This document shows, one piece after another, positions 4,944-42,927 of a stretch of DNA of 64,000 bases. How positions within the stretch are numbered: position 1 is the stretch's first letter; each line of letters opens with the position of its first letter. This DNA comes from Bradyrhizobium guangxiense (lineage in GTDB: Bacteria > Pseudomonadota > Alphaproteobacteria > Rhizobiales > Xanthobacteraceae): assembly GCF_004114915.1 (NCBI RefSeq), contig NZ_CP022219.1, positions 6,788,501 through 6,852,500 on the forward strand, read 5' to 3'. The position numbers were made by a program, and so were the translations under genes. Below the pieces are notes generated by a model. The model saw nothing but the letters and a program-made list of their open reading frames with translations, was not told the DNA's origin and made no database searches.

Positions 4944-5170
4944 TTTGCTTGTTCACTTGTTAGACCACGGCCCATCCCGCAGGCTAGGAGTAGCGGACAT
5001 TCGTTGGGATGTGCTGAGGACAGAAGCTGGCATTCGAGACGTAATGTCGGTCAGACGTTTACGACTGGTTAGGACCTGCTCTGCCCTGCGCGAATGTTCC
5101 CGTATTGTTCTTGCGAAACGGGCCGGGCTCTGCTACCCCTAATTGTGCGTGAGGGCAGGCTGGTTCGAGC

Positions 5171-5311
5171 ATGGTTCAGCGGGTTTCCACCGTCGCCTTT
5201 GAAGGGATCGAGGCCCGGGCGGTCGACGTGCAGGTGCAGGTCGCGCCCGGCCTGCCCGCCTTTGCGATGGTGACTAGAAATAACCCCGAGAGCGCTCCAG
5301 CTCAGGAATAA
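5171..5311 (+). pseudogene. comM: comM 5' fragment, interrupted by the island
   Basis: The ATG at 5171 opens a frame of 34 ComM-like residues (MVQRVSTVAFEGIEARAV through GLPAFAMV), followed by 12 residues read from the island up to a TAA at 5309-5311. ComM/YifB proteins begin in this way and continue with GLPD/ETTVKEARERVRSA, which is found 36 kb away at 41490. Joining 5271 to 41490 gives an uninterrupted 512-residue frame, so this is the displaced N-terminus of one gene. The 46-residue product alone cannot form the ATPase. Confidence 0.93.
5259..5271 (+). repeat. Left junction direct repeat (attL core candidate)
   Basis: CCTTTGCGATGGT lies at the last comM bases before the sequence departs from the comM frame. 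It matches CCTTTGCCATCGT at 41477-41489 in 11 of 13 positions. The crossover of a serine recombinase would fall in one of the shared blocks (CCTTTGC, AT or GT); the sequence does not tell which. Confidence 0.7.
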
Positions 5312-5395: not shown

Positions 5396-8215
5396 TCATC
5401 GCCATGATTCACTGGTAGCCCGAGTGCGATCGACGAATGGGCAAGATCGGAGAAGCGCGTCGTACAACCTGATTGCGTCCGGCGAGGGAGCGGCCAATAT
5501 CTCGAGTTCGTCGAATTCCGGAAACCGGGTCTTGAGGCTTTGCACGATTTTCCTGACAGGTTTGGTCGGGGGAGTCGAATTTCTGGTGAACGGAGCGTTG
5601 GGCTTGGCCGCATTGTTGACATCGCTGACCTTCACGGGCTCGCCTGCTGCCAGAAACCCAACTTCATTCAGCACCGCAGCAAATTCCTTGGCCGTCATGG
5701 CCTGATACGGAGCAAAGCCGGCCAGACCCCTCTTGAACGCCCGGCATATATCGCGCTTGAGCCTTCTGATGTCGCCGTTCTTGCTGCTCATGTATCGCCC
5801 CATACCTGGCGCAAGCGACGATGCTGTATCAAAGAAGTCCGCGAACTCCGCGAAATCGTTCGTCGTCTTCAGGCAGATCTTTGTCTTGCCGTAGAAATCA
5901 TTCCACACGGATCGAACCTGCTTGAATTCCGCTGCAGATTTCCACGGTTCCGTGCTGAAGACGAGGTGCGTCTTCGGGCCAGCTCCCAACGGCTTGATCC
6001 CCTCAACCTCGGTCATTCCTGCTGCATACGGCTTCCGCTTAAAATCGAATTCCATGCTGATGTGCTTCCTGGCCTTCTTCCCAACGAGGTCAGCATTGAA
6101 GAGAAGCATTTCGCGCACGCTCGTGAAATAATCCAACTCGATCTTGTGCTCCGCATTGCGTCGAAAGAATAGCTCGGTGATGTAGTCGTTCTGCTCGTGC
6201 ACTTCCGTACAATGAACGGGCGCCTTGATGCCTGCCTTGGCCAGAACGTAACGTTCGCTCTTCACGGTCTCATCACCTGGCTGGATAGTTGCTTGGCCGC
6301 GCGTGCGCCAACCGAGCACCTGACGAACGCGATGCTTTTCTGAAAGTACCTCAGGATCACCTTTGAGCGCCTCGCGGGCATCCGAAAACCTCTTAGAGAT
6401 TGGCCCGCTCTTGGCGAACTCAATCTCCTGCTCACTCGCGTTCGTGAGGAAGCCATCCGTCGTCACGCTGAAAACCATCTTGTCAGCCGGAATCCGGTTC
6501 ATGATCTCGCCGACGACAGCGCGCACGAACGATGTGATGTACGATGCATAGAATGGGTTACTAATAGCGCTCTCACCGATGCGCTCGCCCCGGCGCTTGC
6601 GGAGACTGAACACGCGCTTCTCGCGAAGACCTTGCGCCGTCTTGCCATAACAAGAATTTGTCAGCTCTTTCCAGAAGGCATTTTCAATCTTTGTCGGCGC
6701 CTCATCGCGCTTCCGTATTGTCTCTTTGATGAAGTTGAAGAAGATTTTGTCGTCTTGATCCTGCGAAACTGCGACGCCGTTCTTGAGCGTTAATTGACAA
6801 TCCAACTGTTGCGCCAACTCGATTTCTGGGCGAGCGCAATAACTGCGGCCGGACAGGGGGAAGATGATCCCGTTCTGCGTCCGCACAGGAAGTGTTGGAT
6901 ACCGTGTGTAATCTGGGAACTTGAAATCGACGCAGACGAATGCGGCATCGTTGCCACGCAAATCGTTTAGCGAAGCCAACGGTCTTATCGTACGCCAATT
7001 AAGACGGCCAATCGTGGCCATCGCGGTCGGATAAGCTCCTGTAAGGTCGTAGTCGTACCAATCGTCCTCAAAGCTCGGCCCGAACCACAACTGCTCATTC
7101 CGTCCGCCGTGATAGCATTCCGTTACGAAGTCGACGAACCAGCTGATCTCTTCGAGGTATGGGGTATGCTTCCATTTCCTGAATCCCTGCGTCTTCTCGT
7201 TCCAGACGACCTCGGTCACCTGCTCCTTACCTACCAACTCAGTCGGATCGCGCTTTGGCTCTTCCTGCTTCCATCCTTTGACGAGCAATTTCATTCCGAT
7301 GCTCGACAGGGCGTTCGGCACAAAGTCCTCGCCGGTGACCTCTTGGTACATGTGCGTCAGCTTGAGAAAGTATTTTGCACTGATTTCGGCGTCGATCAGT
7401 GCGTATTCGCGGAAAGACTCCCAGTCGGTGTTCCGGAAGACCTTCATGTTCTTTTTCCAATGAAGCTCTTCCTCGTCATCGTCAGAGAGCTTGATCTTTT
7501 CCCGCTCAATTAATTTACCAATCTCGGCCAGACTCTTACGACCAGCTGGGGCAAGCAAAATTGTGTCGCGCACATAAATGCTGATATCGACGGGCTCTTT
7601 GTCACCGTCATCAAAGCTGATCTTTAGCGGAATCGGTGCTGATGCGGAGATCAGCGAGCTTCGAACATTCTGAAGACGCCAAAGAACCTGCTTGCTGTCA
7701 TCGAAGGCTGGCAAGTCTGCTCGATTGTAGTGCGCCACCAAGATGATTGTTCGCGGAATCTGCTGCTTTTTCCTCGCTCCTAACGACAACGCATAAACAA
7801 TGAACTCCGTTAAGGAGAGACGGTCGCCGTCTCTCGGGATGGCAACACCGTTCCACTCAACACCGTTACTGTTGATTGCATGGAATTGGTACGACACGAC
7901 CTCGTACTTCGCCTTCCCTTCTTTGATCTCCTCGGTCTCAAACGTTTCTTTGGGTGATTGGTATTCCGTATCGAACCCGAGAACCAAGAATTCCGATCGC
8001 GCAACGTCCTTTATCGTCGTCCGCGGAAACGAGTACTCGAATTTGCGCCCTTTCGGGCGGTTACAAATATACGCGGTGTTGCTCGTCCCAAGGAAGGCGG
8101 CCTGAGTGTCCTTGGGCTTTTCAGAGCCCGCCTCATCTACCTTGCGCTTTTCTGGCGCTGGCTCGTCGGGTTCTGTCTCCTCCTCCTCAAGCTCGATAAA
8201 GTCTTCGTTGTCCAT
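5396..8215 (-). CDS. Family-B DNA polymerase, piPolB-like
   Basis: A 939-residue protein with a complete proofreading polymerase layout. Exonuclease motifs: ExoI FDTEY (D82, E84), ExoII HYNRADL (162-168), ExoIII YALID (Y271, D275). Polymerase motifs: A YDLTGAYP (D390, Y395), B KELTNSCYG (K516, N520, Y523), C SVTTDGF (D587). A KxY-like SERY lies near 653-656. Motif C has Thr where most B-family enzymes have the first Asp of DTD. The first 35 residues are acidic and probably disordered. Size and motif set fit the primer-independent polymerases (piPolB) of pipolins; a protein-primed or RNA-primed B-family member is the alternative. The ATG at 8215 has a GAGCGGG-like site. It is divergent from the 8303 gene across 87 bases and probably serves element replication. 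Confidence 0.85.
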   Translation of the reverse strand: MDNEDFIELEEEETEPDEPAPEKRKVDEAGSEKPKDTQAAFLGTSNTAYICNRPKGRKFEYSFPRTTIKDVARSEFLVLGFDTEYQSPKETFETEEIKEGKAKYEVVSYQFHAINSNGVEWNGVAIPRDGDRLSLTEFIVYALSLGARKKQQIPRTIILVAHYNRADLPAFDDSKQVLWRLQNVRSSLISASAPIPLKISFDDGDKEPVDISIYVRDTILLAPAGRKSLAEIGKLIEREKIKLSDDDEEELHWKKNMKVFRNTDWESFREYALIDAEISAKYFLKLTHMYQEVTGEDFVPNALSSIGMKLLVKGWKQEEPKRDPTELVGKEQVTEVVWNEKTQGFRKWKHTPYLEEISWFVDFVTECYHGGRNEQLWFGPSFEDDWYDYDLTGAYPTAMATIGRLNWRTIRPLASLNDLRGNDAAFVCVDFKFPDYTRYPTLPVRTQNGIIFPLSGRSYCARPEIELAQQLDCQLTLKNGVAVSQDQDDKIFFNFIKETIRKRDEAPTKIENAFWKELTNSCYGKTAQGLREKRVFSLRKRRGERIGESAISNPFYASYITSFVRAVVGEIMNRIPADKMVFSVTTDGFLTNASEQEIEFAKSGPISKRFSDAREALKGDPEVLSEKHRVRQVLGWRTRGQATIQPGDETVKSERYVLAKAGIKAPVHCTEVHEQNDYITELFFRRNAEHKIELDYFTSVREMLLFNADLVGKKARKHISMEFDFKRKPYAAGMTEVEGIKPLGAGPKTHLVFSTEPWKSAAEFKQVRSVWNDFYGKTKICLKTTNDFAEFADFFDTASSLAPGMGRYMSSKNGDIRRLKRDICRAFKRGLAGFAPYQAMTAKEFAAVLNEVGFLAAGEPVKVSDVNNAAKPNAPFTRNSTPPTKPVRKIVQSLKTRFPEFDELEILAAPSPDAIRLYDALLRSCPFVDRTRATSESWR

Positions 8216-8302: not shown

Positions 8303-8623
8303 ATGTCATTCGAAGAGCGCTTCAAGAAGGATGTCCTGGCAAGGCTCGACCGAGCTGAAGCAGCCATTCCTGGCTATGAGTTCACCGCTATGCGCGATCT
8401 GATTGACAAGCAGGGTACTGTGATCACGGCGAAGCGGGTCCTAGACATCAATCATGTTGAGCAGATGCAATCTGGCTTGGAGAAATTGGCGCAACACGAT
8501 CTGTTGGACTGCTCGATCGAACAGGCCGCCGTCGACCATGACTCGAGCGGGGCATTCACGGTGGAAGAGATTGACGTTGCCAAGACCCGGCTCATGATCA
8601 TGCGTCGGAAGATGAGGAAATGA
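8303..8623 (+). CDS. Small hypothetical protein, first of the nuclease cluster
   Basis: A 106-residue soluble, helical-looking protein (FEERFKKDVLARLDRAEAA at the start, a basic MRRKMRK tail). I do not recognise the family. A strong ribosome site GAGGAG sits 6 bases before the ATG at 8303. It is the first plus-strand gene after the divergent polymerase and is followed closely by the HNH gene, so it may be a regulator or accessory factor for the nuclease cluster; that is inference from position alone. Confidence 0.7.
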   Translation: MSFEERFKKDVLARLDRAEAAIPGYEFTAMRDLIDKQGTVITAKRVLDINHVEQMQSGLEKLAQHDLLDCSIEQAAVDHDSSGAFTVEEIDVAKTRLMIMRRKMRK

Positions 8624-8699
8624 CGTGGCCTACACTGTCGTGTGCTCTTATTCCATTGCTCTGAAGGGACCTATCCCAGGCTCAGGAGGCGGCGCCAAC

Positions 8700-9440
8700 A
8701 TGATCATAGTAAAATGGCTTGAAGGCGACAGCCAAGGGTACAACGATCATTTGCCTGATAATTGTATGCGGGTCACCAGTGCCTTGGTCGAGCACGCGGT
8801 CGTTGGTCCTAAAGGTTGGATCCGGATTGGAAGGTGCTCAGTGACTGTCGACAGGAAGCTTGTCACCTTCGACTATTCTGGCGAACACAAGGCATGGAAC
8901 ACGGCGCAAGACTTCTACATTGGCCAAATGAGGTTTGAGTTCGCTAACGCCCGTCGAACTGGCGTGCCTCTTGTTCTCTGGAAGGACGATGGGGAACATG
9001 AGGACTTTCAGCCAGGCTTCGCTGTAGCCGAACTCTGCGAGGATCCGGTAGACGAGTTGAAATCCGCTCCCGAGGGTGATGCTCAGTTCAAGGCGCATGT
9101 TCAGCGAGAAAGAAGTGCTGCTCTTCGAGAGGAAAAACTCCTCAACGAGCTAGCTACTAAGGGGGCCGTGCGATGTGAAGCATGTTCAGCCGACCTCGTG
9201 GCGCAATATGGCAAGCATGGCTTAGCGGGTTATGAGGTTCACCATCGGAAGCCCATCGCAGATGGATCGCGAGAGACTTACCTCAAAGACTTGGCCGTCT
9301 TGTGCGCCAATTGCCACCGCGTCCTACACCGCACGAAACCAATCCAGGGCGTTCACAATTTTGCAAAGCTGATACGCCGCCACCAGGGTTCCGTCAGGGG
9401 GCTTGCTAAATCCGGTCTGGTTCGGGTCAAACGATGCTGA
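8700..9440 (+). CDS. HNH endonuclease, McrA-like C-terminus
   Basis: A 246-residue protein with a C-terminal HNH nuclease domain: paired cysteines CEACSADL, then YEVHHRKPIADG and LCANCHRVLHR, the Zn-stabilised HNH pattern of McrA-type enzymes (about residues 158-213). The N-terminal 150 residues are unrecognised and could bind DNA or sense modified bases. The frame is open from a GTG at 8625, but an AGGAGG 10 bases before the ATG at 8700 makes that the better start. It lies 76 bases after the small ORF and 56 bases before the next nuclease-like gene. A modification-dependent restriction role is plausible; no methyltransferase is nearby. Confidence 0.82.
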   Translation: MIIVKWLEGDSQGYNDHLPDNCMRVTSALVEHAVVGPKGWIRIGRCSVTVDRKLVTFDYSGEHKAWNTAQDFYIGQMRFEFANARRTGVPLVLWKDDGEHEDFQPGFAVAELCEDPVDELKSAPEGDAQFKAHVQRERSAALREEKLLNELATKGAVRCEACSADLVAQYGKHGLAGYEVHHRKPIADGSRETYLKDLAVLCANCHRVLHRTKPIQGVHNFAKLIRRHQGSVRGLAKSGLVRVKRC

Positions 9441-12718: not shown

Positions 12719-13207
12719 TCACAGTTGGCAGTTGGTCCAATCTATGGAGTCAAGCAGCGACCGCTTCTGTCGCAGCTTTAGGAGGTAGTCAGTCCATCCG
12801 GAATCGGACCGGTCCTGGATATGTACCTCGTGATAGCCGAAATCTGTTTTCGGCCATTGGTCTCGGATGATCGCCCTGAAACGCTCGAATGAGCAGTGGT
12901 ATGGCCGCTCAAAGATGCAGTGGTAATGCAAACGATGGTCGGCACTCGTTTCCAACACGCAAATCATGCGCAATCGCTTGCCGTGGATCTTGGCTGCGCG
13001 ACCGAGAACCCGATTTTCTAAGCGCACCCGAAATAACCGCAGGTTTTCAGAAGCTGCTATGTCGTCGGCAGCTCTCGCTCCCGCACGCTTCTTCATAGTC
13101 AGCGTCACAGCCACTGGATTATCGAATGGCACTGCGTCGATGAGATTTGCCAGAACGTCGCGCTCTTCCCGCCGTGCCGCAGGTTTCAGTATCTGATAGG
13201 CGGCCAT
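12719..13207 (-). CDS. HUH-type Rep-like protein
   Basis: A 162-residue protein with the hallmarks of an HUH rolling-circle replication or mobilisation nuclease. A strand-rich start (PVAVTLTMKK, residues 31-40) is followed by the metal-binding LHYHCIFERP (H94, H96) and a C-terminal TDYLLKLRQ in which Y141 would be the nicking tyrosine and K144 its helper. Families of this type initiate replication of small plasmids, filamentous phages and some islands. It is the last gene of a three-gene minus-strand operon, overlapping its upstream neighbour by 22 bases. It is short for a Rep, so it may need a partner. Confidence 0.68.
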   Translation of the reverse strand: MAAYQILKPAARREERDVLANLIDAVPFDNPVAVTLTMKKRAGARAADDIAASENLRLFRVRLENRVLGRAAKIHGKRLRMICVLETSADHRLHYHCIFERPYHCSFERFRAIIRDQWPKTDFGYHEVHIQDRSDSGWTDYLLKLRQKRSLLDSIDWTNCQL

Positions 13208-13605
13208 CCACGGGCCTTCCTAAGACGGCAAAGCACACGCAATAGATAATGGCGTGACTTCTCGCTCACGATCATGACGGCGCTCTTAGGGCCGACCAGT
13301 TTGATCTTGCGCTCACCGTATTGAGTGAGTCCCAGCAGAAATACGCGATACTTTCCCTTGGATGACAGGCTGTACATGGCGCGACGCAAATCCATCAATT
13401 CAGCGAAGTCCGCCGGATCGTTCTCTCGAAGCCATGCGATCAGGTCAGTACTAATGGCGTTTTGGAGCTTCCGCTTGTATCTCGCCGAAGCTTTTGCGCC
13501 CAACGAAGGAGCCGGACGAAAACGCAACAGGAACTCAGCACGCGATACAGGGCGTTGGTCAGTTTCTGAGATCATGTTTGTGTTGTTCGCATTTAGATCG
13601 TTCAT
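13186..13605 (-). CDS. Hypothetical protein in the Rep-like operon
   Basis: A 139-residue protein of unknown family. It contains SRAEFLLRFRPAPSL near residue 21, a central acidic-helical stretch (DLIAWLRENDPADFAELMDL) and a basic C-terminus (YLLRVLCRLRKARGW). It overlaps the HUH gene downstream by 22 bases and the small upstream gene by 4 bases, so the three are likely made together and may act together in element replication or its control. Nothing in the sequence gives a specific activity. Confidence 0.65.
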   Translation of the reverse strand: MNDLNANNTNMISETDQRPVSRAEFLLRFRPAPSLGAKASARYKRKLQNAISTDLIAWLRENDPADFAELMDLRRAMYSLSSKGKYRVFLLGLTQYGERKIKLVGPKSAVMIVSEKSRHYLLRVLCRLRKARGWPPIRY

Positions 13606-14353: not shown

Positions 14354-15079
14354 TCAGCTTGGGGCAGGGTCCTCCTTTTCACCAGTCGCAACGATTTGCA
14401 GCACCCCATCTGAAAGCGGCCTCTGTAGCGCTTTGGCTTCATCCCACGGTGCTCTGAGCCACACGTCGTATTCCTCGGGCTTTGTCAGGATGACTGGCAT
14501 AGCCTTGGGATGAACCCGACCAACCTCCTCGTTAGGCTCGCAGGTGAGGAAGCCGAACACATCAGTGGTAACTTCGCCTTCTTTCGCCTTCCGGACACTC
14601 GTCCAGTTCGTCCAGAGACCGGCGAAGGCTACGAGGGGCCGTTCCTCGCTGAGCGCAAACCACACCGGCACCTTCTTTCCGTCGATAGTGCCGTACTCGC
14701 TGAACGACGTGAACGGCACTAAGCATCGGTGCTCGGGAACTAACCAGCGCTTCCAGTGCGCACTACTGACGTTCCGGATATTGGTGGTGCCGCTGTCGGG
14801 CTCCATCTTCAGGAGTTCTTTGAAGTCAACCGACTTGCCCTTCGATTGGAGCTTTTCGGCTCGCTTCTTGGTGGCATCCATCAATGCCTTCTGCGAAGAC
14901 GGCATGCCCCACCGTGCCATGGCAATCTCTCGTCCATTCGAGGAGTTGCGGACGATCGGCGCGGGATAATCCGGAAAGATGCCTGGCATGCTCGGCAAGT
15001 TGCCGACGCTGCTATTGAGCGCCCCGAACAAGCGCCGAATCGCATCGACGTTTTTCGTCATCGAGTAGAGATTGCACAT
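14354..15079 (-). CDS. SRAP (HMCES/YedK) abasic-site processing protein
   Basis: A 241-residue SRAP-domain protein. These proteins cross-link through the N-terminal Cys2 to abasic sites in single-stranded DNA and shield them. The start must be the ATG at 15079, giving MCNLYS, so that Cys2 is exposed after Met removal; an in-frame start 28 codons upstream would bury it. [12 protein letters not shown] (near 115-126) carries the conserved Glu, and [10 protein letters not shown] (near 200) the conserved His. It is part of a minus-strand block with two zinc-finger proteins and a DNA ligase, which points to a DNA-repair unit. Confidence 0.92.
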
Positions 15080-15081
15080 CC

Positions 15082-15531
15082 TCAGGTATCCTGATCGATC
15101 AGACGAGGCCGCTGCCCCAGCTGCAACAACGTCGTAGTTGGCCTGCGGCCAGCTTTGGCACACTTGCTACAACGAAGACGGCTGGCAAGATCGTGGACAT
15201 GGGTTGTCGGCGGATGGCGCAAAGAGGCCAAGTCAATTTCTCGCTTCGTCTTGCAGCGAGAGCATTCGATTTCGAGCCATGCGTACCCACCATTCACCGC
15301 CTGGTCGATCGATGGCGAAGGATCGATCGGGCCACCGTCAGCCCACATGCGCTCGTTCCAGCTTTGGCAAAGAAGCTTGTCGGCGGTCTGGATTAGGGCC
15401 TCGCCTTTGGCCCGGGCTTCCGAGGATTGTGCGGCAAGGATTGTCGTCATTGCCCTCGCCTTCCCCAACTCCTTCGATAAAGCCTTCCGGTCGCCTCCTG
15501 AGAGCGGGGTCGGGTGGTGTTTGGGAGCCAT
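15082..15531 (-). CDS. Zinc-finger-like protein A
   Basis: A 149-residue protein. A helical N-terminus is followed by a C-terminal metal-binding region: [14 protein letters not shown] (two Cys), a His-rich linker with HVHD, then [15 protein letters not shown] (two Cys), roughly residues 88-132. This CxxC...CxxC pattern suggests a zinc ribbon. It lies 2 bases upstream of the SRAP start and probably shares its transcript. It resembles the next upstream protein (15551-15952), so the pair may derive from a duplication. Function unknown; a DNA-linked role is inferred from the ligase/SRAP neighbours. Confidence 0.7.
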
Positions 15532-15997: not shown

Positions 15998-16924
15998 TTA
16001 TTTCCGGGACAATCCCTTGAAGGAACTCGCACGAAGCAATCCTTCCGCGGTGATGTCTCGGTACTCGATGTCTGCGTAGAATTTTGGCTCGACCCAGGTG
16101 GCCTTCGGCTTCCTGACGGGCTTGGTGAGCTTCTGCTTCGGGCTTACTACGGTATCCAGGGCGTCCCTGATCTTGCGCGATGTCGTCCCACTCCAGCCGG
16201 TGCCGACCTTGCCCATATAGACCAGCTCTTTCCCTTCCTCCTTGCCGAGGTAGAGAGCGGCGACGCCAGTGGGGTCCTTGATGAACCCGACGACGGGGAA
16301 TTTTCCCTTCTGGACGACTTTGACCTTTTGCCAGGCTTCCACACGTTCCGACCGATATGGGGCGTCAACTCTCTTGGAGACGATACCTTCGTAATTCAGC
16401 TTCCTTGCAGCTTCGAACAGTGCCTGCCCGTCGCCCTCGTGGTGCTCGCTGTACAAGATCGGCTCCTCGAGCTGATTGCTTTCGATCAGATCCTTCAGCA
16501 GCTCCTTTCGGGCAAGCTGCGAGAGCTTCCGCAAGTCCTGTCCGTCGAGCCACAGGAGGTCGAAGGCAAAGAACAGCAAGCGGTCCTGTTCGCCTCTCGC
16601 GAGGTCTGCCTGGAGTTCAGAGAAATTGGTCCGGCCCTCGTGGATGACCACAACCTCGCCGTCGACGATGGCTTGTCCTGGGATGTCAAAGGCGCCGGCG
16701 ATCACGGAGAACTTGTGCGTCCAGTTGAGCCCATTGCGGGTAAAGACCTTGCGGTCGTCACCGTCGATATGAAGCTGGATGCGGTAGCCGTCGTATTTGA
16801 CTTCGTGAATCCATTGAGACCCCGAAGGTGCTTTCATCTTCAAGGTCGCAAGCTGGGGGCTGATAAAGCCCGGCATAGCGGCACGCGGCTTTCTGGCCGG
16901 CGCCGTCCTGGTACGCTTCGCCAC
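15998..16924 (-). CDS. ligD: ATP-dependent DNA ligase, LigD ligase-domain type
   Basis: A 308-residue stand-alone ligase module. The catalytic lysine motif is EVKYDGYR (K43). Downstream are VDGEVVV, FFAFDLLWLDG, YEGIVSKR (motif IV) and EAWQKVKVV (motif V), then an OB-fold region with VGFIKDP and KVGTGWS. This is the ligase domain of bacterial NHEJ LigD proteins without the polymerase or phosphoesterase domains, a form common as extra copies in Bradyrhizobium. No Ku gene is nearby. The start is a GTG at 16924, just 18 bases after a terminator-like hairpin. With SRAP it forms a candidate repair unit of the island. Confidence 0.93.
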   Translation of the reverse strand: MAKRTRTAPARKPRAAMPGFISPQLATLKMKAPSGSQWIHEVKYDGYRIQLHIDGDDRKVFTRNGLNWTHKFSVIAGAFDIPGQAIVDGEVVVIHEGRTNFSELQADLARGEQDRLLFFAFDLLWLDGQDLRKLSQLARKELLKDLIESNQLEEPILYSEHHEGDGQALFEAARKLNYEGIVSKRVDAPYRSERVEAWQKVKVVQKGKFPVVGFIKDPTGVAALYLGKEEGKELVYMGKVGTGWSGTTSRKIRDALDTVVSPKQKLTKPVRKPKATWVEPKFYADIEYRDITAEGLLRASSFKGLSRK

Positions 16925-19838: not shown

Positions 19839-19910
19839 ACTGCCCGAGTGACTGCGGCAACGTGGAGAATCGTTCGATGGGCTGCATATGAGGCTCGCCC
19901 ACGGTCGACG

Positions 19911-20026
19911 TCCGCTCCGGGTCAACAGCGCCGTTTTGAGCAGCGGTAAGGAGCTTCCGCTTTACCCCCGACCTCTGACATCTCGCCGCAACGCCATAAC
20001 GGAAGCGAAGGGCCAATAGCTGTCAT
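19911..20026 (+). repeat. Dispersed repeat, copy A
   Basis: Shares GGGTCAACAGCGCCGTTTTGA, the ACCCCCGAC core and CATCTCGCCGCAACGCC with copies at 21811-21913 and 22901-23012, ending in GAAGCGAAGGGCCAA. It overlaps the last few bases of the minus-strand regulator gene. All three copies point the same way. The type is unknown; it looks like a Bradyrhizobium-style intergenic repeat. Confidence 0.7.
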
Positions 20027-21615
20027 TCAGGCAATCCAGCTTTCCGAAGGCCCTCAATCAAGAGCTTCGCATTTGATTGTCCGCCCCGAGCTATCCACGC
20101 AGAAATCGTAAACGCGGGATCGGTCTCAAGCAGACGCGCCGCCGTGTCATGTGCCTCAATGTCGCGTCCGAGATGGGCGAAGGCGGATGCGAGACAGCGG
20201 TAAGCTGGCGAATAGGAGGGGCTCTGACGTTGGGCTTTCTTCCCGGCGACGATGGCCTCGTCAAACCGACTAAGCTCAATAAAGGCCATCCCCATCCCAG
20301 CAAGCGTTGTGTGTAGTTGCGGGTCTACCGGGCTCAGGCGCATCGCACGCTCAAAGCTGCGTAGCGCTTCCTCCGGCACCCCCGCAATCCTATACACATG
20401 GCCTCTGCAACTCCATGCGATATATGAGTTTGGGTTGAGCGCGACCGCCCGATCAGTCATTTCGATCTCACTTTCACTATCGCCGACCATGAACGCCGAG
20501 ATTATGGCGGCAATTGCTAACGTGTCCGGATCACTATCGTCGATACTCAATGCCAGGCGAGAAAGCCGAACTGCTTCGCTACGGTCGAATTGAGGATCGA
20601 TAGCATAGCCAAAAATGACGTTGTGCACGTGACGGATACCTGCCAAAACAGCGGCCACACCAAATCGAGGGTCCAGTTCCAAGGCGCGATGAGCCAGCCG
20701 GAGCCCCTCGGCCACTCCTTCGCGGGTGAACAGATAGTACTGCTGCCTAGCTCGAATAAAGAAATCATATGCGGTGAGGTTCTCCGGTCGCCGTCGCGTC
20801 GCCATCTCAGTTGCTGCTTGAAACAATTTTGGCTGAATAGCTGAGACAACAGCGACCGTCACTTCATCCTGCAGATCGAAAATGTCGGTCAGGTCACGCT
20901 CGAACCTATCCGCCCAGATGTGCGCGCCGGTCACTGCGTCAATCAACTGCCCTGCGATGCGAACTTTCCCGGATGCCTTGCGCACAGACCCCTCAAGGAC
21001 GTAGCGCACGCCAAGTCTGCGTCCGACCTCCTTCACATCGACGGCTTTGCCTTTGAACGTAAAGCTCGAATTGCGAGCGATGACAAACAGCGATTTGAAC
21101 CGCGAAAGCGCCGTGATGATCTCCTCAACCATTCCATCCGCAAAATACTCCTGTTCGGGGTCACCGCTCATGTTTTCGAATGGCAGCACGGCAATGGAAG
21201 GTTTGTCGGGGAGCGCAAGAGAGCTCTCGGACGCACCGCGCGGATTTGGGTTCGCAACTTCTGGCGTCTCCCGCATCTGTCCGACGAAACGGAAGCCCCT
21301 ACGCGGAAGCGTCTTGATGAGGCGCTGCTCCTCACCGGTATCGCCGATGGCAGCGCGGGCAGCGTTTAGCCGAGTCGTCAGCGCCGAGTCGGATACGATC
21401 CGTCCTTTCCAGATCGCGGTTATGAGGTCATCCTTGCTAACGACGCGATCCCTGTTGCGGATCAGGTAGTCGAGCAGGTCAAAAACCTGCGGTGTGACCG
21501 ACACTGCATCAGTCCCCCGATGCAGCTCGCGCCGGTCAGTATCGAATACGTACTCCTCGAATAGATAGCGCAAGCTGCCATCCTCGGGTTGTCCATCCTG
21601 GGGCTTAGGCTGCAC
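20023..21615 (-). CDS. wHTH regulator with TolB-like and TPR domains
   Basis: A 530-residue protein. Residues 20-112 are an OmpR/CadC-type winged helix (LFEEYVFDTDRRELHRG, VTPQVFDLLDYLIRN, LPRRGFRFVGQ). A FlgO/TolB-N-like domain follows (SIAVLPFENMSGDPEQEYFADGM, about 138-270), then TPR repeats (about 280-510). This architecture is common in rhizobia, often annotated as adenylate-cyclase-like or CadC-family regulators, although no cyclase domain is present. The wHTH probably binds DNA; the TPR part may sense or bind a partner. No membrane helix is visible. The target genes are unknown. Confidence 0.85.
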   Translation of the reverse strand: MQPKPQDGQPEDGSLRYLFEEYVFDTDRRELHRGTDAVSVTPQVFDLLDYLIRNRDRVVSKDDLITAIWKGRIVSDSALTTRLNAARAAIGDTGEEQRLIKTLPRRGFRFVGQMRETPEVANPNPRGASESSLALPDKPSIAVLPFENMSGDPEQEYFADGMVEEIITALSRFKSLFVIARNSSFTFKGKAVDVKEVGRRLGVRYVLEGSVRKASGKVRIAGQLIDAVTGAHIWADRFERDLTDIFDLQDEVTVAVVSAIQPKLFQAATEMATRRRPENLTAYDFFIRARQQYYLFTREGVAEGLRLAHRALELDPRFGVAAVLAGIRHVHNVIFGYAIDPQFDRSEAVRLSRLALSIDDSDPDTLAIAAIISAFMVGDSESEIEMTDRAVALNPNSYIAWSCRGHVYRIAGVPEEALRSFERAMRLSPVDPQLHTTLAGMGMAFIELSRFDEAIVAGKKAQRQSPSYSPAYRCLASAFAHLGRDIEAHDTAARLLETDPAFTISAWIARGGQSNAKLLIEGLRKAGLPE

Positions 21616-22095
21616 AAAGATGCCCTTCCGCCACTCGGATCTGAAAGGATAAGCCGCCGATAAGGAAAATGTAAGCCGCTTGTACAGCGCATCGGATCGG
21701 GATTGTCATAGCCAAAATCAATAACACATGGTCGTCGGACTTGGCCGCCCAAGCGATCTTCATAAGCGGGACGCTAATCCCGGAACGCTTTCAGGGCCCA
21801 ATGTCCGAGATGGGTCAACAGCGCCACCTTGAGCAGCAGTTGGGGGGCTTCCGGTTTACCCCGACCCCGGACATCTCGCAGCATCGCCCTAACTGAAGCG
21901 ATGGGCCAACAGCAGAAGTCAGCGTGGCTGCACAAAGCGCGTAGTTCAGGACGCTGAGCTGGCAACGTCATCATCACTGATCATTGTCCTATGTTAATTT
22001 TCCTGCAGCTGCGCTTTATAATTTAGTATTTGAACACAAGGGCTTGGAACGTTGCGCCGCTCTGTCGATTGGCTGACCAGCATCCCGAGGAGCCA
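21616..22095. other. Intergenic stretch between divergent regulators
   Basis: No convincing gene. It holds repeat copy B (21811-21913) and the promoter regions of the minus-strand wHTH gene and the plus-strand receiver gene. An AT-richer patch at about 21985-22030 is a candidate promoter area for the receiver. Confidence 0.4.
21811..21913 (+). repeat. Dispersed repeat, copy B
   Basis: Contains TGGGTCAACAGCGCCACCTT, TTACCCCGACCCCGGACATC and AAGCGATGGGCCAACAGC, matching copies A and C with scattered differences. It is the most diverged of the three and has the same orientation. Confidence 0.65.
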
Positions 22096-22874: not shown

Positions 22875-22900
22875 CTTTCCGAGGGTTTCAGCGTCAAGTC

Positions 22901-23012
22901 CGCTTCGGGTCAACAGCGCCGTTTTGACCAGCGGTCGGGCGCTTCCGCTTCACCCCCGACCCCGGACATCTCGCCGCAACGCCCTAACGGAAGCGAAGGG
23001 CCAACAGCGGAA
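22901..23012 (+). repeat. Dispersed repeat, copy C
   Basis: Very close to copy A: CTTCGGGTCAACAGCGCC, GTTTTGACCAGCGGTC, CCCCCGACCCCGGACATC and GGAAGCGAAGGGCCAA. It lies in the 324-base gap between the receiver pair and the HWE kinase, a gap in which no gene is visible. Confidence 0.7.
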
Positions 23013-23198
23013 ATCCAACTTGGTTTGAAATGAAGAGGGCCGCCAACCCCGGGGGCGGTCTAGATCGAGAGAGATCAGCAAATATTCTGGACGGGACAGA
23101 GCCGACCCATCAGTTCGCTCTGTAAGGACATGCCAGGGGGTATCCGTCCGCCGAAATGCTGGATAAGTTTGCTCCCGGAGGGCTGAGACGGGCATTCA

Positions 23199-25058: not shown

Positions 25059-25430
25059 TCGGAGCACTTCGCTCAACGCAGCATTGATCACAACGGTACG
25101 CGATTTAGCTCGAAGTTCGATGTACTCCAGTCGCGTCCATAGAGCCTGATGTCTGAAAGGGTCAAGGGCCGTCCATGGCAGCCGGATGTCCTTCATGGTC
25201 ATTCTTTGGGCAGCTCTGTGGGCGGAGGTCAGCAACGGGTCAAAAGCTGCTGTAAGGACCGCATCGTAACAGCTTCCGGTTTCCCGCCAAAAGCGGACTC
25301 ATATCCAGCATTCCGCAAAAAAGCGCGCACCGACCAGCGGGTTAGACAACTTGGGTACCGGCTACCAGGTTGCCGTTGCCCAAGTGGCGAATTCAGAAGA
25401 CGGGGCTCCACCAACAACGAGGAGCCCACC
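25059..25430. other. Non-coding stretch
   Basis: Nothing convincing is encoded. The segment 25236-25310 (around ACGGGTCAAAAGCTGC and CTTCCGGTTTCCCGCC) resembles repeat-type sequences found elsewhere in this block but does not align cleanly with copies A-C. The last 40 bases before 25431 supply a ribosome site. Confidence 0.35.
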
Positions 25431-25838
25431 ATGGCACGAGCCACGATCAGTCTTGTCAATGTCACCAAGCCCACTGCGAACACGCCTGCCTTGCAGCGAC
25501 GGGCTAAATTCGCCTCCAGCATCGATCAGCAAATTGCAAAGATCGGAAGCTTCAGAGAGGGAAAGAGAATCAGCAGGGAGAACTTCTGGGTAGATGCCGG
25601 CGGCACCATCTACTGCTCACTTCGATATGGAAAGCAGCCTTTGGAGCTTGAGCGTGGGAAATCGACTCTCAAAGCTGTCGGAACCGGAAATGCTGCATGG
25701 GACGACCTCGTCGAACAGTTGGAGCAAATCAAAGTTTTGGCCGTGGCCGGTGGCCTGGATGAAGCGCTACAGGCCTGCGCAAGTGCTGTTAAAGCGAACT
25801 TCAAGGCGGCGAAGGACAAGAAGACCGGGAAGGGCTAA
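25431..25838 (+). CDS. DUF6641-like small protein
   Basis: A 135-residue protein. It starts with KPTANTPALQRRAKFASSI, then FWVDAGGTIYCSLRYGKQPLEL and a helical C-terminus ending in a Lys-rich tail. The pattern of a short lead, an aromatic strand region with a RYG turn and a C-terminal alpha region recalls the DUF6641 family of plasmids and islands; the assignment is from memory of the family. The ATG at 25431 has GAGGAG 6 bases upstream. An in-frame extension to 25149 lacks protein-like sequence. Function unknown. Confidence 0.65.
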   Translation: MARATISLVNVTKPTANTPALQRRAKFASSIDQQIAKIGSFREGKRISRENFWVDAGGTIYCSLRYGKQPLELERGKSTLKAVGTGNAAWDDLVEQLEQIKVLAVAGGLDEALQACASAVKANFKAAKDKKTGKG

Positions 25839-29997: not shown

Positions 29998-32369
29998 TCA
30001 CTTGATGGCGTCTTTCTCATGTCTTTGAAGGAAGACCTTGTCGGCTGGTATAAGCCACCGAGATGGTGACTTCACAAATAACGACGTGTTTCGATGAACC
30101 CACGATCTTGCAAATTGCACGAGAGCGCTGTCCATATCGTCCCGGCCGATCACGACTTCTAGGAGGGAGACGGTCGATATCGATTCATCACTATCATCAG
30201 CACCATCAGCATCATCCAAGGATAGTTCGGCGAGGCCCATCAGCGCGACGCCGAATGCAGAGGCGTGCTCCGCGGAGCATGACGCGAGTGATGATCTCGT
30301 CTCTTCGATAATACCATAGTCGAACCAAGGAAGTACCGTAGCGCTGCCACCTGAGACCTGAAAGGGTGCTTGTTCGATCGCCCGATGCGAAATTGCTTTG
30401 AACAGCTTAAAATAGGGCGCATCTTCCTCATTCCTCCTACCGAGCAAGACTTCGGCGCTTTCAAAGGTACCTAAACTGAAATCAACATACCGCCAATCAA
30501 GTCGCCTATCGGGCACCACCGAAGCTGACCACATTGCCAAGCCAGACTCTGTCGCGAAGCTTGTTGTCGCTTGAGACAGATCAAAGACTATCTTAGGAAA
30601 CGACGCCTGGCGTATTTCGGCATCCACGGCTCGGCTAATGAAGGAGCTGTCGAATTTCCGCTGCACGCCGCGGAATCGCTGGACAATGGGGGAGAACTCC
30701 ACTGGATAACTATCACGCGATGATAGATAGCACGCGTATAGCCAATCGATGACGAAGCCAATCTTATGTCCCTCGCGCCGCTCTATTCGATCTGCAAGAG
30801 ACTGGTAGACACCCTCCACTATAGCGCTGCTGAACTTAGTCGAATGTTCGATCAGATTGCCGATTGAGCTGCTCCATTGCTCTTTCGATTCGACGGAGTT
30901 GGTAAGCTCGCGAACAATGCGAATGAGCGATTGCTCATTCGGCTGCAAATATCCAACGCTTTCGATAACGAACTGCACTGAGCGCGCAAGCATATCCATG
31001 CTTGACGCGTCTCGTTTTCCCCTCTTCGCGACAGCACTGGCACGAGCCTTCGCCAGAACGTCTATCAATTGGTTAGTGAGCTGCTGAGCCGATTTTAGTT
31101 TGCTGGCGGTCTTCAACTGAAGCGCTAAGTGTAGGGGTACAGTTTGCTCGCCTGCCAAAATGTAGGGCGTCGCGTGTACGAGCAGCGCGTCTATACTGTC
31201 GAATGCGTCATCAAGCCACCTTGCATAAAAATACTCCATGAATGTGCGGTGGCTGAACTCAAATATTCCCGCACTTCTCTCTGAAGTATCCAAGATCGGC
31301 CAATCAAGTGTGAAACAAACCTGTCCGCTGCCGCCTGGGCACGGTGTTCAGTATCAATCTCATAAACGTTTCTGAAAAATTCGAGCACGCGAGACCGCAA
31401 CCATTCCTGATTGGGTTGTTCGACTTCCGGAGATATCAAGTAGAGGTGTCGAGCGAGCTCCGTAACGAGTTGAAAAAGCCAGTGCGGATCCGGTATCTCC
31501 GGATCGATTGCTTTCAAGCTATCCCATCTCCGAAAAAGCAGATCGGAACATTCCGCGTAAAGTTCAATTCGATTGTCGGGAATTCGCTGCCCTACGCTGT
31601 AAATCCAGACTATTAGTGCGAGAAGCAGAGGATTCCGAACAAACTCTTCAGCGTGACGTTGCGCCTGCTGAATAAACTGATCCTGCTCTCGGTCGATGTC
31701 TTCGTCTGTCTTTTCGAAGACCCAGCGGCTTGCTGAACGAAAATACGCCCTCGTCTCAGCTGACGAGAATTGTCGAAGGTGGAATATTTCAACGCCTAAA
31801 ATCGGAGTAACGATAAAGTCGGTACGCCGGCAGGTGAAAATGAAGGTGTTTTGCAGGAAACGATTTGCAAACTGCTTCATAGACGATATTGCATCGCGCC
31901 GCTTGGCAGCGCTAACAATTTCGTCGACGCCGTCAAAAACGATCACCATTCTACCGAAGAATAGGAGATGTTGGACGATTTCGAGCCATTCTGACTCGTG
32001 GAAATGCAGGTTGCATTGCCTCGCAATTTCTTTCGCGACGAAACGCAGCAAGTTGCCGAAGGCATCTCCCGACAATTCTAATGACAGACGCCGCACTTCA
32101 ACCTTCACATAGAGTCGAGCGTTGGAGTTTTGTTCGCGTATTCTGAGTCCGTCGAGACAGAAGCGCTGAGCCAGCGTCGACTTCCCTCCGCCAGGATCAC
32201 CAAGAATAACGCATTGCTGAATTTCGGAGAGCGCCACCCCGTAGGGCTGAGCCGCATACTCACGATGCGCTGCCACACTTTGCGCTGATGCGGTAAGGCC
32301 GCGTCTAACCGAGAAATCTTGGCGTTGCAAAACTGCCGGCACGTAGAGCTTATCAAGCTCGCAATCCAC
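29998..32369 (-). pseudogene. NACHT-type STAND NTPase, frameshifted
   Basis: Two frames together encode one NACHT protein. The first (32369 to about 31280) has Walker A GDPGGGKST (57-65), Walker B VIVFDGVDEI and the NACHT-style stretch ending SHLIGRS. The matching continuation, LDTSERSAGIFEFSHRTFMEYFYARW, lies in another frame that runs to 29998. The slip is near 31280, within CGATCTTGGATAC on the minus strand; no slippery heptamer is visible, so this looks like a mutation and not programmed frameshifting. The C-terminal 400 residues would be the sensor. Upstream, an in-frame TAG separates it from 32400-33083, so the original protein was probably longer. A sequencing error is the alternative. 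Confidence 0.8.
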
Positions 32370-32399
32370 AGAGCGCTGTGCAGGTCCATCGATTCTTAC

Positions 32400-33083
32400 C
32401 TACTCGTATGCATTGATCAGCGATGAGGTAATTTGCTGCAATCGTTCCGTGACAAGGTCCGGAGAAAGAGAAGCCCATGCTGGTAATTGCACTCGCTCAC
32501 TCGCCCTCTTTGGTGAACCGGGCGATACGAGTGATCGAGCTGCCAGCGACACCGCCTTAGCAATATCGGGGCGCACATCGCTTACGATCGAACGTACTTT
32601 TCCTAAGTCGTCTTCCGCGTACTTGGTACGCTGGCTGTCGAAGACAAATAAAATGTCCTTTTGGGTCTGGAGACGAAGACTTTCGCGGAGCACAAAGGTA
32701 ATAGTCTTGAATAGCTCTCGGTTAGCATCGGCTTGTTCATGAGCCGTAAGCACCTTTGTGTGCCTTTCGAGCATCGCATCAAACTGAAGCCGTACGCCTG
32801 CATCCTCCAGGTCGTAGAATGCATCTCTCGCTACAAGATGTAGAAGGCCAGTGTCTTTCAGCTCTGCGAGAAAGTTACCGATAGCCTCGTTAACCTGGCC
32901 GCGCTTGCCAAGAATGACATCGAGGTCACCGATCGCTTTAACAAGAGTGGGCGAATGCTTTGACGGCTCGCCCAACGCAAATGATCGCTCGATTTTGTAT
33001 CTACGGTAGATATCGCCAGCAACGGCAGATGCCGCCGGCCGAACTAGCGCGAATATAGGAGACAGAAGCCAAGATAGGGTCAT
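32400..33083 (-). CDS. N-terminal part of the NACHT protein, or separate small protein
   Basis: A 227-residue frame starting with a hydrophobic MTLSWLLSPIFALVRPAAS, then a helical region (TLVKAIGDLDVILGKRGQVNEAI and KTITFVLRESLRLQTQKDIL). Its TAG stop (32402-32400) is followed in the same frame by VRIDGPAQRSVDCELDKLYVP, the lead-in to the NACHT domain. A CAG-to-TAG change would explain a single original protein of about 1030 residues, with this as the effector or localisation domain. It could instead be a separate, coupled gene. I do not recognise the domain. Confidence 0.65.
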   Translation of the reverse strand: MTLSWLLSPIFALVRPAASAVAGDIYRRYKIERSFALGEPSKHSPTLVKAIGDLDVILGKRGQVNEAIGNFLAELKDTGLLHLVARDAFYDLEDAGVRLQFDAMLERHTKVLTAHEQADANRELFKTITFVLRESLRLQTQKDILFVFDSQRTKYAEDDLGKVRSIVSDVRPDIAKAVSLAARSLVSPGSPKRASERVQLPAWASLSPDLVTERLQQITSSLINAYE

Positions 33084-33112
33084 TGAAGATCTGCTTCGGG
33101 TACCAGCGTCGT

Positions 33113-33346
33113 CTAATTACGCCATGTCTGCTTCGTGATCGTATCGAACCACATTTCCATAACGTAGCGAGCGTCCGGTACCGCGCGAAACTGTGTATAG
33201 GAATAGTGCTGACCATTTTGCAGCCATGTCCAGAATGAACCAAAACCGTAGTGGTAGCAGCTATCAGGCGGCCACGGCTCTTTAGCTTCCTTTGCCCACT
33301 TCTCCACCAGCGAGGGCATGGCCGCTTCAGCTTCACACTTCTTCAC
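33113..33346 (-). CDS. Small Trp-rich hypothetical protein
   Basis: A 77-residue protein with many aromatic residues (PPDSCYHYGFGSFWTWLQNG and VMEMWFDTITKQTW). A GTG at 33346 has AGGAG 7 bases upstream and is preferred over the ATG at 33379. It lies 29 bases upstream of the 32400-33083 frame on the same strand, so it may have been transcribed with the NACHT gene. Family and function unknown. Confidence 0.55.
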   Translation of the reverse strand: MKKCEAEAAMPSLVEKWAKEAKEPWPPDSCYHYGFGSFWTWLQNGQHYSYTQFRAVPDARYVMEMWFDTITKQTWRN

Positions 33347-33514
33347 GGCTAATCTCCTGCCGAGACAATCGGATGCCATTTCAAGTCGCGGCTCCCGTTA
33401 AGGATTGATCCTAAAGTCGCAATCAACAGACCCTCGTATTCGGAAGGTGGCAGACTAGCGTGCTAGATACAACCTGCGATATGTTCTTCCTGGAATCATG
33501 TTCGCGAGAGGCGC

Positions 33515-36352: not shown

Positions 36353-36651
36353 GCGGCAAAACGAATTTCGCTATTCACCTCGCCAATATTCATTTCCCGT
36401 CGACGATCGCCACTCCGATGGCGGCGATCGGCATATGTCAAAATCGAGAATCGACTAGTCACTGGAGCGACGCATCATGACTCCTCATGCTGAGAACAAA
36501 CCGGCAAAAATCCAGCTGCGCCTTCAAAGTCAATCGAGCATGGTCTTTGATACCCGGGCAAAGAATGGGGTCGTCTAGCTTTTAGAAACTTTGTCGTTGT
36601 CCGCTTACGGACCTTGATCGATAGCGTCCCATTATTGAGGTGGGACAACAA

Positions 36652-37296
36652 ATGTCTAAGTTCATCGCATATTTCCGCGTATCAACCGAACGTCAGGGGA
36701 AATCTGGCCTCGGCTTAGCCGCTCAGCGTCGCAAGATCACTGATTTCGTTGCAGGCGCCGGCAGGCTCATTGCTGAATTCTGCGATATCCAATCCGGGAA
36801 GGACGATTCCCGCACAGAATTACAGCGAGCGATTCAGCTGGCCAAACGCGAGAACGCGAAGATCGTTATCGCTCGCCTCGACCGTTTTTCCCGCCGGGTC
36901 AGCTTTATCGCCAGCATCCTTGAACAGGGCATCGGTCTCGTCTGTGCTGAGATGCCCAATGCAACGGACTTCCAACTCCATATCTTCGCTGCGCTCGCTC
37001 AGGAGGAACGCAGGCTGATCTCCGAACGGACGAAGGCAGCATTGGCCGAAGCAAAACGTCGAGGCAAAATTCTCGGATCAAATGGAAGGAATTTGGCCGC
37101 GAAGAATCGCAAGGCCGCTGACGACTTTGCATCCGAACTCAGAGAAAAGCTGGGCGCTAATGTATTGCGGCGTTCTTACAGCGAAATTGCACGACATCTG
37201 AATGATGCGGGGATCACGACTGTAACAGGACGAAAATTCTACCCGCAGACGGTCAAGAACTACTTGGCACGGGCAACTTCAGATTTCTCATCGTGA
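36652..37296 (+). CDS. Small serine recombinase (resolvase/invertase type)
   Basis: A 214-residue serine recombinase. FIAYFRVSTERQGKSGLGL holds the catalytic Ser near residue 11, and VIARLDRFSRRV the active-site arginines (about 69-75). The last 45 residues form a resolvase-type helix-turn-helix (RRSYSEIARHLNDAGITT, then YPQTVKNYLARA). The size fits a resolvase or invertase, not the large integrase at the right end of the island. The ATG at 36652 is preferred over a GTG four codons before. It may be a trace of a smaller element nested in the island; no obvious target repeats were seen beside it. Confidence 0.9.
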   Translation: MSKFIAYFRVSTERQGKSGLGLAAQRRKITDFVAGAGRLIAEFCDIQSGKDDSRTELQRAIQLAKRENAKIVIARLDRFSRRVSFIASILEQGIGLVCAEMPNATDFQLHIFAALAQEERRLISERTKAALAEAKRRGKILGSNGRNLAAKNRKAADDFASELREKLGANVLRRSYSEIARHLNDAGITTVTGRKFYPQTVKNYLARATSDFSS

Positions 37297-39378: not shown

Positions 39379-39663
39379 TTATTTCTCGTCCAAAGCTGCT
39401 TCATCCGCCGGCGACTTCATCGTCTTCCCATCAGCGGAAATCATCTCGAAATCTGGTGCGGTGCCCATAACCTTCTGGATGAACTTCGTCGGGTGTTCAG
39501 GATCGACGAACAGAATCATGCCTTGGCCGTCTCTGAACACCACCTCAAAGCTCTGAGCGTCAGGGTCGACCGTCAGGCGCAGCTCGCTGATCAGCAGTCT
39601 CGAGCGATCGAGCGCAAAACCTGCGTGCATATCTCCGAGCCAAACGTTCCTGGCTTCACGCAT
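39379..39663 (-). CDS. Small acidic protein coupled to the integrase
   Basis: A 94-residue acidic protein (RLTVDPDAQSFEVVFRDGQG; VDPEHPTKFIQKVMG; SPADEAALDEK). Its ATG at 39663 overlaps the end of the large serine recombinase by 8 bases, so the two are translated together. Family unknown. Partners of large serine integrases are often directionality factors that promote excision, and this is the only gene so placed, but nothing in the sequence proves that role. Confidence 0.65.
   Translation of the reverse strand: MREARNVWLGDMHAGFALDRSRLLISELRLTVDPDAQSFEVVFRDGQGMILFVDPEHPTKFIQKVMGTAPDFEMISADGKTMKSPADEAALDEK

Positions 39664-41409: not shown

Positions 41410-41410
<1 letters not shown>
39656..41410 (-). 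CDS. Large serine recombinase (island integrase)
   Basis: A 584-residue recombinase. The catalytic domain starts at the N-terminus: SYLRISTD with catalytic S12, then LIVESLDRLSREE and the long helix region to about 150. A recombinase domain follows, then a zinc-ribbon-like domain (CAYCGASMKYD and LVCSKSARRFGCHG, about 318-350) and a coiled coil (about 385-475), the standard layout of large serine integrases. It starts at a TTG at 41410, only 66 bases from the right junction repeat, reading inward. No promoter is obvious between the junction and the start. It is the likely agent of comM integration. Confidence 0.93.

Positions 41411-42927
<1,517 letters not shown>

Follow-up and report, generated by a model that had tools for sequence, protein, structure and literature searches.

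A probable pipolin with a large serine integrase in comM of Bradyrhizobium guangxiense

We analysed a stretch of 64,000 nt from Bradyrhizobium guangxiense (NZ_CP022219.1, positions 6,788,501-6,852,500; hereafter the window, to which all coordinates refer) that holds an island within the gene comM. The island carries a piPolB-type family-B DNA polymerase (PolB) gene at one end and the gene for a large serine recombinase (LSR) at the other. The element is probably an integrated pipolin using a comM-specific LSR, with a proposed cycle of excision, nicking by an HUH-type protein and copying by piPolB. As read from its sequence, it is a pipolin by polymerase and boundaries and differs from those described in its integration module and target. 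The contig holding the window comprises 7.2 Mb of a genome of 8.2 Mb.

The left host flank is a 5' fragment of comM (first ~34 codons; 5171-5271, plus strand), which is 93% identical to same-genus comM over 5157-5262 and ends in the attL core CCTTTGCGATGGT (5259-5271). The attR core CCTTTGCCATCGT (41477-41489) has 11 of 13 bases in common with it, and the rest of comM forms a 505-aa open reading frame (ORF; 41410-42927, plus strand) that is started anew from the island end, which contributes the start codon together with ~23 foreign codons. Both cores were placed by alignment with empty sites. Same-genus comM was matched in 39 other genomes, and when 29 of these loci (L014-L042) were fetched, similarity to the left flank ended at 5256-5272 and similarity to the right flank began at 41477-41485, with the two flanks contiguous in 28 of the 29; the exception is L019, with a different left side such as another insertion would leave. 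The core positions give an island of ~36.2 kb, and the alignment shows a precise LSR-type insertion in comM; the island itself is presumably mobile. Thus, the serine-integrase island and the comM target of the preliminary description are both borne out. The stop codon of PolB lies ~125 bp inside the left core and the start of the LSR ~66 bp inside the right core, so that the two genes would be neighbours in an excised circle. Most of the island has a GC content of 0.50-0.60, lower than the 0.62-0.69 of the flanks; a patch at ~18-20 kb reaches 0.62-0.64. Compared as inverted repeats, the island ends match at 14 of 22 positions, and the best 19-mer was equalled by 40 of 1000 random pairs.

The PolB gene (5396-8215) encodes 939 aa on the minus strand; the plus-strand frame from 5396 is interrupted by stops. 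Pfam assigned DNA_pol_B_2 (E 1.8e-8), and the only NCBIfam match was to HpnE, far below cut-off. The exonuclease residues D82, E84, D167, Y271 and D275, described before as intact, were confirmed in this minus-strand ORF and are conserved in relatives, as are the polymerase motif residues D390, K516, D587 and D724-K726. Motif C reads TTDG. Its first Asp is absent in all 79 aligned piPolB-like rows (T in 77, V in one, I in one) and present in phi29, PRD1, Cp-1, Av-1 and E. coli Pol II, T4 gp43 being misaligned at that place; a Microbacterium tectivirus polymerase has Glu there, so that this Asp is absent from it, too. According to Kazlauskas et al. (2020; PMC7544198), piPolBs lack the first motif C Asp yet are highly active.

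Between motif C and the DxK motif there are 130-166 aa in all 79 rows (139 in the window PolB). The next KxY of four protein-primed PolBs is reached 35-40 aa behind motif C; we infer that the DxK of the piPolB-like rows is equivalent to this KxY. Long spans were also measured in the alignment for Pol II (134), T4 gp43 (163) and the tectivirus enzyme (122), so the length separates PolB from phi29-like enzymes only. An xTRG motif lies within this stretch, as RTRG in 50 of the 79 rows; a KTRG motif is important for priming in piPolB. Lengths between motifs did not discriminate with respect to TPR1 and TPR2. The sequence search found no solved piPolB structure, and the closest solved fold to the predicted model (pLDDT 90.3, pTM 0.87) was phi29 DNA polymerase (E 1.1e-16, TM 0.65 by target length).

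Relatives were collected by scanning genome_contigs with a six-row PolB alignment, which gave 132 pattern matches and 96 relatives. The best 80 of these were kept and represent 76 distinct loci in other genomes, a number of which are incomplete or truncated at the end of a contig. With this many loci, the PolB ORF is not a chance one. They come from Alpha-, Beta- and Gammaproteobacteria, Verrucomicrobia, Actinomycetota, Lachnospiraceae and a few others, many being metagenome-assembled genomes (MAGs). Counts of loci are counts of rows and not of independent events, since L052 and L003 are the same gene and the pairs L055/L056 and L074/L075 are near-identical. Whole-genome searches detected PolB in four of the 296 genomes taken from the family, once as a fragment, and in 2 of the 397 taken from the order; both counts include the own genome. 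One family member, G262, has a PolB identical to that of a MAG of Afipia (Nitrobacteraceae, Hyphomicrobiales in the NCBI taxonomy); its locus lies near a tRNA-Ser gene, and G262 was set aside as a candidate LSR-bounded case because of contig ends.

tblastn of PolB against 72,556 plasmid records gave 47 matches, the best from Fusobacterium (6e-30) and Staphylococcus epidermidis plasmid pSE-12228-03 (9e-26); 30 of the matching records were Pseudosulfitobacter plasmids. The same search of 50,697 phage records gave six matches, all from Microbacterium phages (best 3e-5). In viral_contigs, no relative was found with the single PolB protein as query and one with the alignment. L127, a 22-kb piPolB contig with a tyrosine recombinase, is classed as viral in IMG/VR.

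A quick tree was calculated from 79 piPolB-like rows and 7 references. PolB ORFs shorter than 600 aa (L086, L097, L105, L106), the IS-broken L007 and second copies of the same gene were left out of the trees, and L090 was represented by the longer of its two ORFs. The window PolB paired with that of genome G255 at 99, inside a mostly proteobacterial set. For a more careful tree we used 27 rows (21 piPolB-like, 4 protein-primed and 2 nucleic-acid-primed PolBs; tectivirus polymerase left out), and each of the three groups formed one side of a branch, with the piPolB-like side at 100/99. This side includes plasmid pSE-12228-03 as well as Lachnospiraceae and actinobacterial relatives. A placement among protein-primed or RNA-primed PolBs, the outcome named earlier as refuting, was not found, and the earlier assignment as a piPolB-like polymerase holds. 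The link to the published family runs through pSE-12228-03 and motif C, in a tree that contains no biochemically tested piPolB; a distant DNA search that started from Psychromonas did not yield an E. coli piPolB as reference. Altogether, branch support and motif C show that the window PolB belongs to the piPolB clade and is thus a predicted primer-independent enzyme.

In the quick tree the Microbacterium tectivirus polymerase was placed next to the piPolB-like rows, with a branch length of 8.74. Its gene (L047 2113-4203) is annotated as 'DNA primase/polymerase', and it may be another self-priming PolB.

The LSR (584 aa; 39656-41410, minus strand) contains the Pfam domains Resolvase, Recombinase and Zn_ribbon_recom. 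Among the 397 genomes of the order, 20 others had LSR matches at E<=1e-30, and homologues stood beside comM in all 11 loci that were fetched, with one limit of the comM match near residue 196-216. PolB was undetected in all 20, the two draws of 397 genomes being taken as one and the same set. By homology, the window LSR is a member of a comM-flanking family that is also present where no PolB was detected, and a dedicated LSR-PolB partnership was ruled out because of these PolB-less occurrences. The tyrosine-recombinase profile had no match within the window, and no tRNA gene was found there. A small serine recombinase of resolvase type (218 aa; 36640-37296, plus strand; Pfam Resolvase 1.5e-25) is shared with other piPolB islands, at identities of 73% in G255, 65% in TNE-4 and 48% in Roseobacter MED193.

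Including the window, piPolB islands adjoin comM in 7 genomes. Both comM sides were seen in the window, in Brucella grignonensis (L075/G720) and in Mesorhizobium erdmanii (L103/G728, ~32 kb). One side was seen in L074/G719, whose PolB is nearly the same as that of L075, in Paenochrobactrum (L089/G724, second site), in Bradyrhizobium retamae (L064/G716) and in Bradyrhizobium sp. URHD0069 (L090/G725), where the PolB island is at the second site and another LSR island at the first. The layout in L074, L075, L089 and L103 is other than in the window, with PolB separated from the junction by the LSR. No LSR belonging to the PolB island was seen in G716 or G725, and the PolB of G725 is split into two ORFs. 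When comM was searched in 47 piPolB genomes, 34 had one near-full-length match, 6 were the named comM cases, 5 had otherwise split or partial matches and 2 had none. Mapped on the quick tree, the comM state changes at least five times among 43 labelled rows, 7 of them comM, which suggests that the association was gained or lost repeatedly.

The island of G255 lies in a different gene. Here PolB and a 574-aa LSR occupy the two ends of a ~47-kb island in a thermonuclease-like gene, an assignment made by eye from DGDTF and RLRGVDAPE, as Pfam found no domain in either half. The halves of this target gene are contiguous in all 6 relatives examined, out of 9 fetched.

Several further observations concern comM. 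Several LSR islands insert into it at no fewer than two sites, at about residues 31-36 and at about residue 212 (L142-L145: G725, G690, G024, G693). Both sites are occupied simultaneously in G725. The comM of G693 is broken at a third point, close to nt 740, and no LSR match accompanies this interruption. The comM island of Brucella grignonensis (L075 640-14855) is compact, with tyrosine recombinase, PolB and LSR within 14.2 kb, and its ends are imperfect inverted repeats (18/22).

The window island also encodes a small HUH Rep-like protein (12719-13207, minus strand), recognised by Pfam REP_ORF2-G2P (1.1e-7; 32.5 bits, cut-off 27.8) and without a match in NCBIfam. It has the motifs TLT, H94-x-H96 and GWxxY141xxK144, whose columns are invariant in 14 aligned rows, and the predicted model reached a pLDDT of 91.3; we regard it as a putative nickase. 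Of the 76 scan loci, 14 contain the gene (one copy is partial and two are near-identical), versus 3 of 396 other genomes of the order (one weak), a comparison of samples unlike in make-up, with stretches of at most 23 kb on one side and whole genomes on the other. The homology counts show an association of the HUH gene with piPolB loci. In 22 hand-picked, not randomly drawn, piPolB genomes the gene was present in 8, one copy each, and HUH as a universal piPolB partner was ruled out because it was absent from the other 14.

Companion genes were counted in 87 stretches plus the window, some being parts of one genome and several short or cut by contig ends. The profiles were iterative, with possible drift, most of all for mobC, and the counts are therefore approximate. 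Tyrosine recombinases occurred in 40 of the 88 stretches, serine recombinases of any size in 37 and the HUH gene in 16. Relatives of MobC or relaxases were found in 15 other stretches, none among the 16 with HUH, so that 31 of 88 stretches have a presumed nickase gene and 57 have neither. The family of a small protein at 25422-25838 (plus strand, no Pfam match above cut-off) occurs near piPolB in 23 stretches, the window included. Seven, again with the window, had profile matches to a 106-aa protein without Pfam domain (8303-8623, plus strand), mostly in the window's own PolB clade; two of the seven are the same gene (L011, L052) and one is in Rhodocyclaceae.

Proteins of 106-121 aa are encoded directly beside the piPolB gene in the window, in L010 (2322-2648) and in L011 (18218-18583), and in two genomes the gene precedes that of piPolB in the same orientation, with an overlap at the piPolB start. 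The protein is possibly an accessory of the polymerase. A 139-aa neighbour of the HUH gene (13186-13605, minus strand) is conserved with it in four stretches including the window, and also in the island of G196. G196 and G587 have the HUH gene with an LSR or tyrosine recombinase nearby and no detected PolB. The G196 island (L135 9915-15964) encodes the HUH Rep, its neighbour protein, a relative of the 25422-25838 family and a 641-aa LSR, and may be a piPolB-less sister element.

Integrated pipolins carry tyrosine recombinases, often at tRNA genes (PMC9710591, PMC7385651), in agreement with what the preliminary description said of enterobacterial pipolins. Plasmid pipolins carry relaxases and resolvases, often without an integrase (PMC9710591); the integrase was therefore treated as a variable trait and the element filed as a pipolin variant. 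The earlier idea of an undescribed class had to be given up, since the polymerase group, alphaproteobacterial examples and plasmid forms have already been published as pipolins (PMC9710591, PMC7385651). The window element shares with these the hallmark polymerase of the piPolB clade, att-bounded integration, variable cargo and the resolvases known from plasmid forms, whereas it has an LSR and a comM target instead of a tyrosine recombinase at a tRNA gene, and in addition a small HUH Rep-like gene. Neither 'serine recombinase' nor 'rolling' is mentioned for pipolins in the excerpts of these two papers. This is no claim that the literature lacks LSR pipolins. A 2024 pipolin paper in Nucleic Acids Research reportedly treats pipolins as defence islands, names Pseudosulfitobacter plasmids and may mention serine integrases.

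Other known systems resemble the element in part. The PolB of S. epidermidis pSE-12228-03 (NC_005006) groups with the window PolB, and the plasmid, whose host is named as a plasmid-pipolin host (PMC9710591), has a small serine recombinase; however, it is an 8-kb plasmid with a MOBP relaxase and no LSR was seen on it, and its PolB is only ~26% identical. In a Pseudosulfitobacter plasmid region (NZ_CP087043) an alphaproteobacterial piPolB-type gene is next to an integrase and MobC/relaxase, but this integrase is of tyrosine type (the annotated site-specific integrase was a seed of our tyrosine-recombinase profile) and the piPolB-type gene is interrupted by IS66 genes (L007 11608-17152). SCC-type and other polymerase-SSB primase islands have a priming polymerase of their own, some together with a large serine recombinase, although theirs is an A-family polymerase with SSB and the target is rlmH or ssrA (PMC10061031). 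AbaR and other islands interrupting comM in Acinetobacter have the insertion target and defence cargo in common with the window island, but they are Tn7-like or other elements, and piPolB is not mentioned in the excerpt describing them (PMC11472951).

In the proposed cycle, the LSR would excise a circle in which PolB, attP and the integrase gene are adjacent. The HUH Rep-like protein, or a relaxase, would nick this circle and start rolling-circle or transfer synthesis, and piPolB would begin de novo on the resulting single strand and make it double-stranded without host primase. The small serine recombinase would resolve multimers, and the circle would integrate into comM again. The interruption or re-start of comM may, by analogy, protect the island from removal by natural transformation: for Acinetobacter it is argued that heterologous DNA transforms less well once comM is lost, and that elements may thereby escape removal (PMC11472951), an argument that may carry over to the present host, should it be competent. 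A bolder version is possible, with the balance of probability against it: serine-integrase pipolins crossing lineages would parasitise comM, the HUH nickase would make single strands that piPolB alone primes and copies without host primase, and insertion in comM would lower transformation and so protect the element.

The biological role of piPolB is still unclear (PMC9710591), and piPolB islands in comM of several bacteria provide a new route to test the purpose of this polymerase. Its pairing with an HUH nickase-like gene allows a direct test, namely whether piPolB synthesises the second strand once a circle has been nicked. The finding further shows that pipolins have a replaceable integration module, and comM, a transformation gene, is added as a recurrent pipolin target; pipolins are thereby linked with the contest in which mobile elements and natural transformation oppose each other.

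Alternatively, PolB could be a passenger that was picked up by a generic comM-LSR island and serves host damage tolerance or defence rather than island replication. The LSR relatives beside comM without detected PolB fit this reading, SRAP and DNA ligase in the window island and Ku in G255 point to repair, and a putative role of piPolB in host damage tolerance has been mentioned (PMC9710591). We nevertheless consider a passenger unlikely, given that in the window, G255 and G725 a distance of ~100-125 bp separates PolB from a junction, and that small proteins (resolvase, HUH, 25422-25838 family) recur near it. Similarly low is the probability we give to a decayed remnant that is no longer mobile. 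The rarity of PolB, with the own genome one of only two positives in the order, its split form in G725 and the IS66 genes inside the Pseudosulfitobacter copy would agree with decay; in the window, however, the PolB, LSR, resolvase and HUH ORFs are all open, their lengths are about as in relatives, and the junctions are clean.

Somewhat less probable again is that the island arose by accretion of two or more neighbouring elements at comM, which contributed PolB and LSR separately, as the higher-GC stretch at ~18-20 kb and the tandem islands at comM in G725 might indicate. Only the two terminal comM fragments were found in the window, and PolB at one end with an LSR at the other also occurs in G255, at a different target; separate accreted elements were rejected after internal comM fragments and repeats of the island ends had been looked for within the island and none found. 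We regard it as very improbable that PolB is a protein-primed enzyme belonging to a linear phage or plasmid that has integrated. The fold of phi29 DNA polymerase as the best solved match and the PHROGs match of the island protein at 33515-36352 could be counted in its favour, but the TTDG of motif C, the long stretch up to DxK and the tree set PolB apart from phi29, PRD1, Cp-1 and Av-1, and a protein-primed phage polymerase was ruled out on tree and motifs. The island proteins that were scanned, 8 against PHROGs and, beside PolB, 29 of the window against Pfam (not every ORF), included no recognisable product of a phage structural gene. An integrated pipolin with a comM-specific LSR thus remains the reading we prefer.

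The cargo of the window island includes an HNH endonuclease-like protein (8625-9440, plus strand; Pfam HNH 9.8e-6, PADLOC mREase_IV 2.5e-6), a SRAP protein of the SOS-associated peptidase family (14354-15163, minus strand; Pfam SRAP 4.2e-23), an ATP-dependent DNA ligase (15998-16924, minus strand; Pfam DNA_ligase_A_M 6e-28, A_C 4e-17) and a DnaJ-domain protein. Candidate defence cargo and its neighbours occupy 29998-36352, with a NACHT protein (31191-32369, minus strand; Pfam NACHT 5.3e-9) and an NB-ARC/TPR/cold-shock protein (33515-36352, plus strand; Pfam NB-ARC 4.5e-9) that matches phrog_24039, of unknown function in PHROGs, at 6e-197. The PADLOC matches of the window cargo are weak. Strong ones were obtained in sister islands, for the candidate defence gene PDC-S46 in the Brucella island (1.2e-235) and for PDC-S21 on the PolB side of G725 (3e-121). 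A dispersed repeat of 120 nt is present in three copies in the window island (19910-20029, 21803-21922 and 22898-23017; the latter two 72 and 88% identical to the first), which surround CadC-like and two-component genes.

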